Shown here one piece after another: positions 26,592 through 36,906 of a stretch of 39,547 nucleotides of DNA. Position numbers and translations under genes: made by a program. The number at the start of each line of letters is the position of its first letter. Within the stretch, counting starts at the first letter, position 1. This stretch comes from a virus: positions 1 through 39,547 of IMG/VR virus record IMGVR_UViG_3300021964_006482; one strand, given 5' to 3'. The notes beneath the pieces are model-generated. The model saw nothing but the letters and a program-made list of their open reading frames with translations. It was not told the DNA's origin and searched no databases.

Positions 26592-26804
26592 ATGACGTAT
26601 TTTGAACTCAAAGAAGCTAATCGCTTTTACTGGCTAGTCAAAGGTCAACTCATTCCTGAATCTTGGAACGAAAAAGATATTCGCGACACATATGAATCTT
26701 ACTTTAGACGCTTGTGGGGCAACCACGAAAGAGCAGTATATGGCGAGTTAGGATTTGAAGCAGCCTGGGCAAAAACGCCAAGCAAAAAAGCGGTTGACAT
26801 CTAA
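26592..26804 (+). CDS. Unknown small phage protein (70 aa)
   Basis: A 70-residue aromatic-rich protein (MTYFELKEANRFYWLVKGQL) with no known domain. It sits between a terminator and the tmRNA promoter and is probably translated from a leaderless late mRNA. The last codons contain the -35 box for the tmRNA. Confidence 0.55.
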   Translation: MTYFELKEANRFYWLVKGQLIPESWNEKDIRDTYESYFRRLWGNHERAVYGELGFEAAWAKTPSKKAVDI

Positions 26805-26824
26805 AGTATAAACTGTTATAAATA
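26794..26824 (+). promoter_or_regulatory. Composite early/late promoter of tmRNA
   Basis: TTGACA (26794-26799), 17 bases, TATAAATA (26817-26824). The last element is at once a sigma70 -10 hexamer (TATAAA) and an exact T4 late box, so the tmRNA could be made throughout infection. Confidence 0.7.
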
Positions 26825-26829
26825 ACCTG

Positions 26830-27070
26830 TAGGCGTTACAAAGCGTATTTGGACTCCGGGGCGGTACCGGACGCCTCCACCATAAGCACTCTATCCCAAC
26901 CTGACGAGGGCGGATCGTAAAGAACTAAACAGAGTGCTTATGATGGGGGCGAAATAGGTTTCGACAGGTAGGCAAGTTTACAAAACACAAATGCAAACGA
27001 TAACTTTGCACCTGAGTTAGCCCTAGCGGCATGATTCACGGGGTTAGTCCACCTTGTTACCAAACGGCTA
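26830..27070 (+). ncRNA. ssrA: Circularly permuted two-piece tmRNA
   Basis: The acceptor piece comes first and ends in CCTCCACCA at 26882. A T-arm-like hairpin TCCGG/CCGGA precedes it. An 11-bp perfect hairpin (26882-26892 with 26931-26941) encloses the segment to be removed. The coding piece begins GGGGGCG at 26945, which pairs with CGCCTCC (26872-26878) to form the acceptor stem, and continues with the typical GAAATAGGTTTCGACAGG. The tag frame starts with GCA at 26993 and encodes ANDNFAPELALAA before TGA at 27032. Its job is to rescue stalled ribosomes and mark nascent chains for proteolysis. The permuted layout is that of alphaproteobacterial tmRNAs. Exact ends are approximate. Confidence 0.93.
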
Positions 27071-27107
27071 GAAAGGTGTTGCAGAGATGTAACACCTTTC
27101 TTCTTTT
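27071..27107 (+). terminator. Terminator of tmRNA
   Basis: GAAAGGTGTT (27071-27080) pairs with AACACCTTTC (27091-27100) and is followed by TTCTTTT. Confidence 0.85.
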
Positions 27108-33622: not shown

Positions 33623-34764
33623 TGCGCATCGAACAAGACGTTAAACTTGACTACAAGGACGTACTCATACGGCCTAAGCGTTCAACACTAGGATCACGCA
33701 AGGAAGTAGACCTAGAACGAGGTTACACATTCCGTAACTATACTTCAGACTTTCCAGATAATATAGAAGAACGTCATTGGCGTGGCATTCCTCTTATGGC
33801 TGCTAACATGGATGGCGTTGGCACATTTGAAATGGCTGACCAACTTGCAACTGCAGGTATCTTCACTTGCTTAGTTAAAACTTATAGCGTAGAACAACTA
33901 GTAGAGTACTTTGATACAGATATGTATGAACGTACAAACTATGTCGCTATGAGCATTGGCATTAATGGCAGTGACTGGAACAAGTTTAAAAGTGTATATG
34001 AACGTGCAGACGGTAATCTAAAATACGTTTGCATTGACGTAGCAAACGGATATTCAAATCGCTTCCGTGACTTTGTTGCAGAAATGCGTAAGACATATCC
34101 AAATATTGTAATCATCGCTGGAAATGTAGTAACTGGCGAAATGACGGAGGAACTTATTCTTGCTGGCGCAGATATTATTAAAGTGGGCATCGGCCCTGGA
34201 AGTGTTTGTACAACACGGATCCAAACTGGTGTTGGTTACCCTCAGCTTTCCGCTGTTATTGAGTGCGCTGATGCTGCTCACGGTCTTGGTGGCCATATCA
34301 TTGCGGATGGTGGCTGCACTACTCCTGGCGATGTAGCCAAAGCATTTGCCGCTGGAGCAGACTTTGTAATGCTAGGTGGTATGCTTGCCGGACACGATGA
34401 AGGCGGCGGCGAAGTAATCACAAAGCACTATGCAAACAATGAATACACAAGACAAGATGATGGTACTTATGTGCCACACTTTGAACAAAGACACTTTGTA
34501 CAGTTTTACGGCATGAGCAGTAAAAGTGCAAATGAAAAGCATTTCGGAGGATTGAAAGATTATCGTTCCTCGGAAGGCAGGACAGTCCTTGTACCCTACA
34601 GGGGATCTGTGGGTATAACCGTACAAGAAATACTCGGGGGTATTAGGTCTGCCTGTACGTATGCTGGAGCAGTGCGCTTGAAGCACCTATCTAAGTGTAC
34701 AACATTTGTTCGTTGTACTCAAACTCATAACTCTGTTTATGAAAAAAGCACGATTGGCAAATGA
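33622..34764 (+). CDS. guaC: GMP reductase (IMPDH/GMPR family)
   Basis: A 380-residue TIM-barrel enzyme. The flavin-free active-site loop GPGSVCTTR places the catalytic cysteine at 196; [15 protein letters not shown] and [13 protein letters not shown] (phosphate and nucleotide binding) follow. GMP reductase converts GMP to IMP with NADPH, moving purine from guanine to adenine pools, useful for an AT-rich phage. It is slightly longer than typical GuaC (about 345). IMP dehydrogenase is less likely as there is no CBS module. TAATG overlap with bS21. Confidence 0.88.
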
Positions 34765-34770
34765 TAAATA
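34764..34770 (+). promoter_or_regulatory. Late promoter of hsp20
   Basis: ATAAATA at 34764-34770, overlapping the guaC stop; start expected near 34776, at the base of the first leader hairpin. Confidence 0.55.
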
Positions 34771-34775
34771 ACTGT

Positions 34776-34846
34776 GTACATTATAAGAGTTATAATGTAC
34801 TAGGATGCCGAAAGGATCCTAATATTAATCTTGCTTATTAAAGGAG
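34776..34846 (+). promoter_or_regulatory. ROSE-like RNA thermometer candidate
   Basis: Three hairpins in the leader: an 11-bp perfect stem (34776-34786 with 34790-34800); TAGGAT-CC / GG-ATCCTA with GAAA tetraloop and one bulged G (34801-34821); and CTTGCTT (34830-34836) pairing with AAGGAG (34841-34846), leaving the G of TTGCT unpaired. The last is the defining ROSE motif, masking the Shine-Dalgarno sequence. Confidence 0.65.
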
Positions 34847-34853
34847 AAAAAAC

Positions 34854-35333
34854 ATGACAAGACTAACAACTCTAGACCTACCACACTTTCATAGAGCAAC
34901 TATTGGCTTTGACAGACTGTTTAACGAATTAGAAACACAATTTGCAAATAGTCCTAATGGAAATGGTTATCCCCCATACAACATTGCACAAATCAACGAA
35001 GACGAGTATATGATCTCTGTTGCCGTTGCTGGCTTTGGTATGGATAATCTGTCTGTAGAAAAAGACAAGAACGTTCTTAAGATTGAAGGTATCGCTCCTA
35101 AGGGAGGCGAACATGTCAACTACCTGCACAAAGGTATTGGCGGTCGCAACTTCCGTAGAGAGTTTACACTTGCTGACCACGTAGAAGTTGTCAGTGCTGG
35201 ACTTGACCTAGGTATGCTTAATGTGCACCTAAAGCGTGAAGTTCCAGAAGAACTACAACCTAAGAAGATTGAAATCACAGACTGGAATGGTCATGTGACA
35301 GAAGCAATCGACGTAGACGCAAACGAAAAGTAA
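34854..35333 (+). CDS. Small heat-shock protein Hsp20 (IbpA-like)
   Basis: A 159-residue alpha-crystallin-domain protein: MISVAVAGFGMDNLSVEKD, VLKIEG and the central FRREFTLADHVEVVSAGLD region, then GMLNVHLKRE. A C-terminal IEI (in KKIEITDW) provides the IxI motif for oligomer assembly. It would hold unfolded proteins, perhaps capsid intermediates, during infection. Translation probably depends on temperature through the ROSE-like leader. Hsp20 genes are frequent in T4-like marine phages. Confidence 0.93.
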   Translation: MTRLTTLDLPHFHRATIGFDRLFNELETQFANSPNGNGYPPYNIAQINEDEYMISVAVAGFGMDNLSVEKDKNVLKIEGIAPKGGEHVNYLHKGIGGRNFRREFTLADHVEVVSAGLDLGMLNVHLKREVPEELQPKKIEITDWNGHVTEAIDVDANEK

Positions 35334-35378: not shown

Positions 35379-35678
35379 ATGACAACTGAAGTAGTTATTG
35401 ACGAAAAAATCAAACGTGAAATTAAAGAACCTAACAACTATAATGTAATCATGTTAAATGATGACGGAACTCCGATGGAGTGGGTAGTACAAGTACTACA
35501 AGAAATCTATCGACACAGCCTTACGTCAGCTCAGGAAATAATGTTAACTATTCACAATGAGGGATCAGCAGTCGTTGGCACTTATAAGTACGAAATAGCA
35601 GAACAAAAAGCAGTAGAAACTGTTAATGCAAGTCGCAATCAAGGGTTTCCACTGATATGTAAGGTTGAGGAAGAATGA
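35379..35678 (+). CDS. clpS: ClpS protease adaptor
   Basis: A 99-residue ClpS-family protein: NNYNVIMLNDDGTPMEWVV, the HSLTSAQEIMLTIHNEGSAVVGTY core, and KAVETVNASRNQGFPL. ClpS delivers N-degron substrates to ClpAP and turns it away from ssrA-tagged ones. The phage also encodes a tmRNA, so the two probably act on the same host protease. It overlaps heme oxygenase by ATGA. Confidence 0.9.
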   Translation: MTTEVVIDEKIKREIKEPNNYNVIMLNDDGTPMEWVVQVLQEIYRHSLTSAQEIMLTIHNEGSAVVGTYKYEIAEQKAVETVNASRNQGFPLICKVEEE

Positions 35679-36217
35679 GCTTAAAAGATTTAACTTGGGA
35701 ACATCATAAAAATGCAGAACGTCAAGAGTTTGTTAAAGAACTCATGGGCGGCAAAATAACAAATGAAAGATATGCAACATATCTTTTCAATCAACATCCA
35801 GCATATAATACACTAGAAATGCTAGGCATGATGCATGGGTTATTTGATGGGGTGCCTGAGCTAAGGCGAGCACCACGCATACATGAAGACTACCAAGAGC
35901 TTTGGAGCGATGACTTTAAACAGCCTGCATTATGTAAAAGTGTACGTGAATATATGGATCACTTAATGAGTATTAAAGATGATGCTGAAAAACTAATGGC
36001 ACACATCTATGTAAGACATATGGGAGATCTAAGTGGCGGACAAATGATTGCAAAACGTGTTCCTGGCAAAGGATTATTTTATCAGTTTAATCGTCCAGTA
36101 GATGAACTTAAAGAACATATACGTTCTAAAATCAATGACGACATGGCAGACGAAGCAAAACTATGCTTTGACTTTGCTACAAGATTATTTCAAGAGATGG
36201 CAGGATTAACAGAATGA
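35675..36217 (+). CDS. Heme oxygenase
   Basis: A 180-residue, all-helical heme oxygenase. The proximal heme ligand is likely His11 (WEHHKNAE) and the distal helix carries YVRHMGDLSGGQ (112-123), a hallmark of the family. It opens heme to biliverdin, iron and CO. The next gene, a bilin reductase overlapping by ATGA, would use the biliverdin. Slightly shorter than cyanobacterial HO1, as are other phage forms. Confidence 0.93.
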   Translation: MSLKDLTWEHHKNAERQEFVKELMGGKITNERYATYLFNQHPAYNTLEMLGMMHGLFDGVPELRRAPRIHEDYQELWSDDFKQPALCKSVREYMDHLMSIKDDAEKLMAHIYVRHMGDLSGGQMIAKRVPGKGLFYQFNRPVDELKEHIRSKINDDMADEAKLCFDFATRLFQEMAGLTE

Positions 36218-36906
36218 GTGTTATCTGGGATAGACTTATAGAATGTCAAAATGAAATCATAAATATTTTTAATGAAAAGGCAAAAGAAGTACAAGAAGAC
36301 GGTCTTGATTATTTTAACCGTCCAGATAGCGGTTGGATTAATCGTGTTTGGTCCAACGATAGTATCAGACGTGCTCACATCGATGTAGTTGACGCTAGAG
36401 ATACAAAGGGTTTATGGATGATGCATGTATGCATATTTCCAACACTTGACAATCCTGCACCTATATACGGTTTCGATGTAATCGCAGGCAAGAACAAGAT
36501 GACTGGTGCGTTCCATGACTTTTCACCAAGTGCTGATCCTGACCACCCTATGATACAAGGTTACTACGAAAGCGTAGAAGACTTTATTCCTAAGAAGCAA
36601 CGTGAACTGCCTGAGTGGGCTCGCAACATCTTTACAGATAAAATGCTTGCCGCAGGAAATGTAACCACAGAAGAAGAAGCAGTTGCTATTATTGAGATTG
36701 CTCTAAACAATCTTCATGCTTATTTTGATGAAGTAGGTCTTACTGATAAAGAAGGTGATCCGACTATTGTCGCTGCATGTCAAGACTATTACTGTCACAA
36801 TCAGCAACAGAATCCACACACTCCTAATGTTATGAAAAGTCTAGGGCTTCCTGAAGAAGATGTAGACAAGTTCTGCACAGACATGCTGTTTCCTAAACTA
36901 GCATAA
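36214..36906 (+). CDS. Ferredoxin-dependent bilin reductase (PcyX/PebS type)
   Basis: A 230-residue FDBR. Key region: IYGFDVIAGKNKMTGAFHDF (84-103) with the conserved substrate-binding Asp88 and a second Asp at 102; the C-terminus has PNVMKSLGLPEEDVDKFC, as in PebS/PcyA relatives. It reduces biliverdin with electrons from ferredoxin, giving a phycobilin. The neighbourhood (heme oxygenase in front, ALAS elsewhere) matches the PcyX class described from oceanic phages presumed to infect alphaproteobacteria. PcyX is reported to yield phycoerythrobilin; I cannot prove the product from the sequence. PcyA is an alternative. Confidence 0.88.
   Translation: MSVIWDRLIECQNEIINIFNEKAKEVQEDGLDYFNRPDSGWINRVWSNDSIRRAHIDVVDARDTKGLWMMHVCIFPTLDNPAPIYGFDVIAGKNKMTGAFHDFSPSADPDHPMIQGYYESVEDFIPKKQRELPEWARNIFTDKMLAAGNVTTEEEAVAIIEIALNNLHAYFDEVGLTDKEGDPTIVAACQDYYCHNQQQNPHTPNVMKSLGLPEEDVDKFCTDMLFPKLA

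Follow-up and report, generated by a model that had tools for sequence, protein, structure and literature searches.

A Short ROSE-Like RNA Element, Probably a Thermometer, on Chaperone Genes of T4-Like Aquatic Phages

Introduction

The closest described counterparts of the element reported here are the ROSE-like leaders of Pseudomonas ibpA, which have two hairpins and the motif U(U/C)GCU, and in which hairpin II is sufficient on its own (Krajewski et al., 2013; PMC3669281). These short leaders bind the 30S ribosomal subunit in a temperature-dependent manner in vitro (PMC3669281). In the present study, we examined a leader of similar form that precedes the small heat shock gene hsp20 in the IMG/VR virus record IMGVR_UViG_3300021964_006482, the whole 39,547 nucleotides (nt) of which are referred to as the window. 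This leader most likely represents a phage-borne class of ROSE-like thermometers.

The phage leader shares with Pseudomonas ibpA its two hairpins, a length of approximately 60 nt, and its position before a small heat shock gene, as well as the pairing of U(U/C)GCU with the Shine-Dalgarno (SD) sequence in the 3'-proximal hairpin (PMC3669281). It differs in being carried by a phage, close to a late promoter box, and in also occurring on dnaK; moreover, the loop of its SD hairpin is AT-rich, and its hairpin I has GCC and a bulged G (PMC3669281). Regarding the features by which ROSE-like leaders are recognized (PMC3669281), the window element lies before a small heat shock gene, with the dnaK copies representing an extension, pairs UUGCU imperfectly with the SD sequence so that a G is left unpaired, and has a stable hairpin, termed hairpin A below, 5' of the SD hairpin, within the usual range of two to four hairpins. 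In the consensus of the Rfam family ROSE_3 (RF02523), hairpin I likewise contains a bulged G and the parts follow one another in the same order, whereas the phage copies examined, unlike members of that family, score below its gathering cut-off of 43 bits.

A phage RNA thermometer has been described in the cIII mRNA of lambda (Altuvia et al., 1989, as cited in PMC4166951). This mRNA is likewise structured around the ribosome-binding site, with a temperature response that is known there and predicted here; unlike the present element, it alternates between two exclusive folds, closes on warming, and belongs to a gene of the lysis-lysogeny decision (PMC4166951). The Synechocystis hsp17 thermometer also hides the ribosome-binding site of a small heat shock gene (PMC4477652; PMC4166951). 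The cyanophages examined in the present study carry the ROSE-like form and not the hsp17 form. To our knowledge, the ROSE core is not known in lambda cIII.

The hsp20 gene was a core gene in all 16 cyanophage genomes compared previously, and a role in capsid scaffolding was suggested (PMC3037559). Hsp20 of phage S-ShM2 acts as a chaperone in vitro, and the purpose of hsp20 is still debated (PMC5028025); the word thermometer is absent from the available text of that paper. Hsp20 is also common in large freshwater phages that bear pmoC (PMC7674155). Searches of the open-licence literature showed no earlier description of a phage with a ROSE-like thermometer.

Results

The hsp20 gene of the window (34854-35333, plus strand, as are the leader elements and clpS) encodes a small heat shock protein of 159 amino acids (Pfam HSP20, 7.5e-14; PHROG 432 Hsp20). 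Its leader contains an anti-SD strand, U-CUUGCUU (UCUUGCUU, 34829-34836), which is recognized by its sequence, conservation, and compensatory changes and holds the ROSE core UYGCU with a bulged G at 34833. Within this strand, CTTGCTT (C34830-T34836) stands opposite the SD sequence AAGGAG (A34841-G34846), its partner according to sequence and pair counts, with G34833 unpaired; four loop bases separate the two arms, and the AUG follows at 34854. Hairpin A (34801-34821), which corresponds to ROSE hairpin I and is supported by covariation, is predicted to fold as TAGGAT[G]CC-GAAA-GGATCCTA, with a bulged G34807 and a GAAA loop. Further upstream, a perfect 11-bp hairpin with a 3-nt loop is predicted at 34776-34800, the putative 5' end of a late transcript, and is preceded by a T4-type late promoter box, GATAAATA (34763-34770), the function of which is assigned from T4-like phages. 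The spacing from late box to +1 in T4-like phages would place the start of transcription near 34776, the foot of this first hairpin.

The fold of 34764-34870 was better than those of 200 out of 200 shuffled sequences (z -3.5), mostly owing to the two upstream hairpins. A preliminary description of this DNA had proposed three successive hairpins, a ROSE core formed by CTTGCTT and AAGGAG with an unpaired G, and a late promoter that starts transcription at the foot of the first hairpin. The core was borne out in relatives, where it is conserved and compensated, and the box and start position agree with the above; regarding the hairpins, the two upstream ones were predicted, whereas the first is not general, and the SD hairpin is lost from the predicted fold when the start of the coding sequence is included. 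Since it is not generally conserved among relatives, the first hairpin was ruled out as part of the sensor. Hairpin A was also considered as a transcription terminator and rejected, the sequence having no U-run after it.

The core recurred in relatives retrieved by protein similarity. Among the best 80 of 225 IMG/VR stretches encoding relatives of the window Hsp20, all 80 hsp20 leaders had CT[TC]GC correctly spaced before a GGAG SD sequence, and these leaders consist of a hairpin with a variable outer stem followed by CTTGC and GGAG. A corresponding survey of dnaK gave 80 loci, of which 79 entered the count: the core was present in 69 leaders, two were truncated by the contig end, and eight had an A in place of the G. 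Three downstream DnaK proteins were tested and are full Hsp70 proteins (Pfam E below 1e-250). Distinct dnaK loci with 300 nt or more of downstream sequence numbered 17; in 13 of them, a second core stood directly before an hsp20 within 1.2 kb, and in four it was missing. The dnaK locus L082 has the gene order dnaK-hsp20-clpS-heme oxygenase-bilin reductase, which is the operon of the window with dnaK placed first; a megablast search of one dnaK-hsp20 locus against phage records gave no match.

The association also emerged without gene information. The pattern GCCGNNAGGN{8,25}CTTGCTTN{0,10}AAGGAG, scanned over the viral contigs of IMG/VR, matched at least 120 stretches, and among the matches listed, 93 were located before hsp20 and 27 before dnaK according to a hidden Markov model (HMM) search; with a cruder choice of start codon and the hsp20 HMM alone, 89 of the matches listed were assigned to hsp20. 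A variant-loop pattern (GCCC...AGGG) gave 109 viral matches, 103 of them before hsp20 by HMM. The others were inspected individually: two had hsp20 starts lost at the contig end, as judged by eye (L309 and L363), one had been assigned another reading frame although its start is the same as in other hsp20 copies (L300), one contig stops before any start codon (L276), and two were not chaperones, one of these being a chance match (L275) and the other L281. When downstream proteins of at least 60 amino acids from the matches listed in both viral scans were clustered, 105 hsp20, 17 dnaK, and one other cluster were obtained at 90% identity, and 24, one, and one, respectively, at 50%. When the base after CTTGCT was changed to A, C, or G, 33 hsp20 leaders were found among the 120 matches listed, and with another base before AGGAG, 54 of 77 matches were hsp20 leaders. 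In bacterial and archaeal genomes (257 Gb), the first pattern gave 72 matches, a number near a rough estimate of chance, of which five preceded chaperone genes: two dnaK (L215 and L255), two hsp20 (L224 and L250), and an ibpB-type gene of Enterobacter (L257). The former four are in metagenome bins and could possibly be phage contigs.

Among 435 named phage records with a match to Hsp20, 24 were fetched, comprising HTVC115P, Mosig, Atu_ph07, the single-cell virus AG-345-E02, and 20 cyanophages. UYGCU preceded the SD sequence in 22 of the 24; the other two, S-TIM5 (ACGCU) and S-CREM2 (UUGCC), are variants in which the SD sequence is altered to match. Compensated SD helices were found in S-TIM5 (CACGCTT-AAGGTG), S-H9-1 and ACG-2014e (GTCGCTT-AAGGAC), S-CREM2 (CTTGCCT-AGGGAG), and MED4-213 and S-CAM1 (CTCGCTA-TAGGAG), the replacements being of the A-U, G-C, and C-G types. 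These changes on both sides of the helix are the strongest indication that selection acts on the SD helix itself. The best helix of 3+3 pairs with one bulge scored 13 or more in 19 of the 24 records and in 5 of 328 other SD-bearing leaders, and the bulged base was G in 22 of the 24; ACG-2014g, ACG-2014f, and Mosig scored 9-11, and the script took the wrong register in ACG-2014e, in which the SD sequence abuts the AUG, and in Atu_ph07, which has a shorter helix. The upstream hairpin with a bulged G and inner CC-GG was detected in 19 of the 24 by script and in Mosig by eye. This bulged-G hairpin has CT in HTVC115P, Atu_ph07, and P-TIM68, S-TIM5 has an upstream hairpin of another sequence, and the loop is UUCG in 12 of the 24. 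Besides cyanophages, the element thus occurs in pelagiphages and in an Agrobacterium jumbo phage, as well as in many phages that are uncultured.

Pair counts supported both helices. In 118 distinct copies of hairpin A with a four-base loop, 88% of the six outer pairs were standard versus 30-41% when one arm was slid by one or two bases, and in 53 copies with the variant loop, the values were 92% versus 32-37%. In an alignment of 18 sequences limited to leaders of similar spacing (A4), the first helix was 100% paired, with changes on both sides in four of six pairs, and 97.4% of the cells of the whole structure paired, versus 86.6% in shuffles and 41-68% in slides; the SD helix is nearly invariant in A4 and, thus, provides little information. 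Two MAFFT alignments, A1 and A3, misplaced the SD sequence or the 3' arm and were excluded from the counts. In 252 distinct leaders, which had been pre-selected for CTYGC and GGAG and were compared with shuffles that ignore relatedness, the outermost pair of the SD helix, directly outside CTYGC-GGAG, was formed in 202 (shuffle maximum, 161), being T-A in 146, C-G in 26, with a G opposite each of the 26 Cs, A-T in 25, and T-G in five, with 50 unpaired. Pairs further outward showed no excess over shuffles in these leaders.

To examine the bulged G, we scanned for leaders with another base in its place (CTTHCTT) and obtained 48 matches, of which 39 were not chaperone leaders; the other nine, eight hsp20 and one dnaK, matched only in a second register, and all nine keep CTCGC or CTTGC, the former being the second version of the ROSE motif U(U/C)GCU. 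However, strict invariance of the bulged G was rejected because a dnaK clade carries A. In seven of the eight dnaK leaders with A (L686, L687, L688, L689, L692, L693, L702, and L707), the outer stem is longer (GATCTT..GGAGAT).

The leaders were also compared with bacterial RNA families. No ROSE family reached its cut-off in the window in an Rfam search; in a relaxed-threshold search of 401 bases, ROSE_3 was the best of 4227 families (25.8 bits, E 0.0024) and aligned over 34799-34859 with the bulged G, anti-SD, SD, and start codon in register. The preliminary description had looked to the Rfam models for a match, and one is present, but below the cut-off. Of 16 additional viral loci, three had sub-cut-off matches to ROSE_3 at the element (30.5 bits at best, in L102, then 27.0 and 21.7); such matches were also located there in 3 of 12 named records (MED4-213, 29.2; Atu_ph07, 28.0; S-SKS1, 27.9 bits), and in one of nine bacterial loci (L737, 28.6 bits). 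The cut-off was reached in none of 20 viral loci, 96 alphaproteobacterial genomes, and 14 control genomes, which implies that the Rfam model is narrow. In a strict sense, the element is not a member of ROSE_3. The family freshwater-2 (RF02980), a cis-regulatory motif ending in AAAGGAGAAAA-AUG, matched weakly at 34779-34856 in the window (22.9 bits) and at 1542-1638 in L157 (27.6 bits), both below its cut-off of 49.9, and may be related to the element.

We used A4, whose sequences include those of the window, ACG-2014g, and P-SSM2, to construct a covariance model (R1). Among the first 12 named records, R1 gave full-length matches in 10, HTVC115P being the weakest at 16.6 bits; it missed S-TIM5, matched Atu_ph07 partly, and gave 25.2 bits for Enterobacter ibpB. 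In 190 genomes of Alphaproteobacteria, the class of a Rhodobacteraceae bin, R1 gave 28 matches in 25 genomes at E 0.001 or better. Twenty of these loci were fetched: seven precede hsp20 (L736, L737, L738, L739, L744, L749, and L753), one precedes dnaK (L741), and 12 are not chaperone leaders; the top four scores all belong to hsp20. L737, L739, and L741 are regarded as bacterial because their contigs are 0.88-1.2 Mb in length; the contigs of the others measure 5-94 kb and may derive from phages. The suggestion of a host-type element in the preliminary description thus holds, since a model trained on phages finds bacterial hsp20 and dnaK leaders, and these comparisons support the view that the phage element is of the same kind as those leaders. 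The leader of L741 (1501-1557) is a ROSE-like leader on a bacterial dnaK gene in a 1.0-Mb contig, outside the small heat shock genes to which ROSE is reportedly always tied.

A late box also accompanied the element elsewhere. TAAATA was present within 110 nt 5' of the anti-SD strand in 190 of 246 chaperone leaders, six further ones being too short to judge, versus 64 of 356 other SD-bearing genes at the same loci; this excess fits late transcription in T4-like phages. With the last GCC taken to mark the bulged-G hairpin, the distance from the box was 0-29 nt in 142 of the 190 leaders, 30-59 nt in 44, which leaves room for an extra hairpin, and other in four.

In the window, hsp20 follows a gene for IMP dehydrogenase/GMP reductase. 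The next gene on its 3' side is clpS, which encodes a Clp protease adaptor (35379-35678; Pfam ClpS, 1.7e-28), and genes for heme oxygenase and a ferredoxin-dependent bilin reductase (35675-36906) are located directly 3' of hsp20-clpS. Elsewhere in the window, at 26790-27074, a permuted transfer-messenger RNA of the alphaproteobacterial type was detected (RF01849, 62.9 bits; RF04321, 77.2 bits), which is apparently phage-encoded and in two pieces, and was not reported by ARAGORN.

Discussion

Comparisons of the leaders demonstrate that phage chaperone genes carry a conserved, ROSE-like RNA. With a probability of approximately three in four, we consider the element of the window to be a ROSE-like RNA thermometer of the short form with two hairpins, borne by an aquatic phage of the T4-like type; the thermometer function is likely from the kind of element, the gene that it precedes, and its form. 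At the normal temperature of the host, the second hairpin would hide the ribosome-binding site of the late transcript. On warming, the weak, bulged SD helix would melt, and Hsp20, together with DnaK where present, would be translated, such that the phage adds a heat-gated supply of chaperones to its late operon during infection. Since a ROSE-like fold precedes hsp20 and dnaK in numerous aquatic phages, well-known cyanophages among them, these phages probably switch on their own chaperones on warming. The preliminary description, which placed a ROSE thermometer on a single phage hsp20 gene, is supported in its structural reading, whereas it underestimated the scope, which extends to many aquatic phages and to dnaK.

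Several results weigh against the reading as a thermometer. ROSE_3 remained below its cut-off everywhere checked, including the window. Pairing at the loop-closing position of the SD helix, which we used as evidence for single named phages only, was not in excess in the 252 leaders (205 versus a shuffle maximum of 207). The bulged G is replaced by A (CTTACTT or CTCACTT) in 8 of the 79 dnaK leaders, and in L281 (1600-1865), the sole non-chaperone among the clustered hits, the element precedes an open reading frame of 69 amino acids (MFDYVIDYVQNSKK...) with no Pfam match. DnaK relatives are present in 44 named phage records, among which the three dnaK leaders viewed, those of two uncultured jumbo phages and of Prevotella phage Lak-A1, have neither the element nor an SD sequence of the AAGGAG type; the presence of the element on every phage dnaK was ruled out by these three.

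The energy models were also considered. With the leader taken alone, the SD sequence was predicted to be mostly paired at 5-25°C, its mean unpaired probability rising from 0.11 at 5°C to 0.27 at 42°C. When 36 nt of coding sequence were added, UCUUG paired with CAAGA of codons 2-3 in the minimum-energy fold, and the SD sequence was then predicted to be open at all the temperatures modeled (unpaired at 0.91 at 5-15°C and 0.76 at 42°C); the expectation in the preliminary description that no fold would be more stable than the SD hairpin failed in this prediction. In the bare 17-nt hairpin, the model favored a 3-bp alternative over the ROSE helix, for which -2.6 kcal/mol was calculated at 5°C and +1.0 at 37°C. 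The median unpaired probability of the SD sequence in the 252 chaperone leaders was hardly distinct from that in 250 control leaders (0.39 versus 0.42 at 10°C, P 0.009; 0.48 versus 0.51 at 37°C, P 0.06), and due to this poor separation, the models were dropped as stand-alone proof. ROSE helices are held by non-canonical pairs (PMC3669281; PMC9450479), and because the models do not include such pairs, we judged them to be neutral to mildly adverse; their support for temperature control is weak. The start that gives the pairing of UCUUG with CAAGA in the window (ATGACAAGA; 34829-34863) is shared by 77 of the 252 chaperone leaders, and this pairing may be a switch peculiar to one clade or may arise coincidentally from codon use.

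Chance pairing, given an AT-rich leader and a common SD sequence, has next to nothing to recommend it. CTTGCTT is short, and CTTGCTT..AGGAG occurred at least once in 8 of 100 shuffled windows, searched as CTTGCTTN{0,12}AGGAG, which occurs once in the window itself; nevertheless, relatives share the pattern and the helices covary, and chance is refuted by this conservation. Alternatively, the hairpins may do no more than shield the late transcript at its 5' end or fix the level of translation, with no sensing, an explanation that would suit the little temperature dependence of the folding models and the late box close upstream, from which the transcript would start at or near a hairpin. We regard it as improbable because conservation centers on the anti-SD strand and the bulged base and not on stability, because the association is almost only with chaperones, and because compensatory changes in a bulged helix would be needless for a fixed weak site.

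A leader that serves mainly as an operator is also unlikely, though it deserves more weight than the absence of sensing. Hsp20 itself or another phage protein such as RegA would then attach to the hairpins and repress translation, and the signal would be the titration of the chaperone by protein misfolded in the course of infection and not temperature itself; IbpA of Escherichia coli reportedly represses through its own ROSE leader. The element is common to hsp20 and dnaK and is closely linked with these genes, as would be expected of one regulator acting on both, and the upstream hairpin, with its own bulged G and frequent loop of the UUCG or GNRA type, exceeds the requirements of a thermometer. 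The gene directly 5' of hsp20 is regA, which encodes the T4 translational repressor, or is annotated as 'translation repressor' in 8 of the 24 named records (L636, L725, L726, L727, L732, L733, L734, and L735). However, the 5' neighbor in the window is a different gene, and regA is not the neighbor in the other annotated named records; moreover, the short Pseudomonas leaders respond to temperature in binding 30S subunits in vitro, with hairpin II sufficient (PMC3669281). Possible self-regulation by Hsp20 would be compatible with a thermometer.

Considering the origin of the thermometer module, it was probably derived from bacterial heat shock genes because Alphaproteobacteria carry such leaders on hsp20 and dnaK. 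Given that the phage element is of one kind with these leaders, a gene-linked transfer from bacteria would be the simplest route. A broader view, towards which we lean without firm conviction, is that aquatic T4-like phages carry a heat shock regulon of their own, in which an RNA module of bacterial derivation before hsp20 and dnaK, often in tandem, would couple the late output of chaperones to heat or to the load of misfolded protein; the status of hsp20 as a cyanophage core gene would thereby be accounted for.

A conserved thermometer on hsp20 would make a role in heat stress directly testable in isolates, for example P-SSM2, Syn33, or HTVC115P. Viruses and dnaK would also join the 'bacterial small heat shock genes' (PMC4166951) under ROSE-like control. 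The element further suggests that water temperature and infection by phages are connected at the molecular level.

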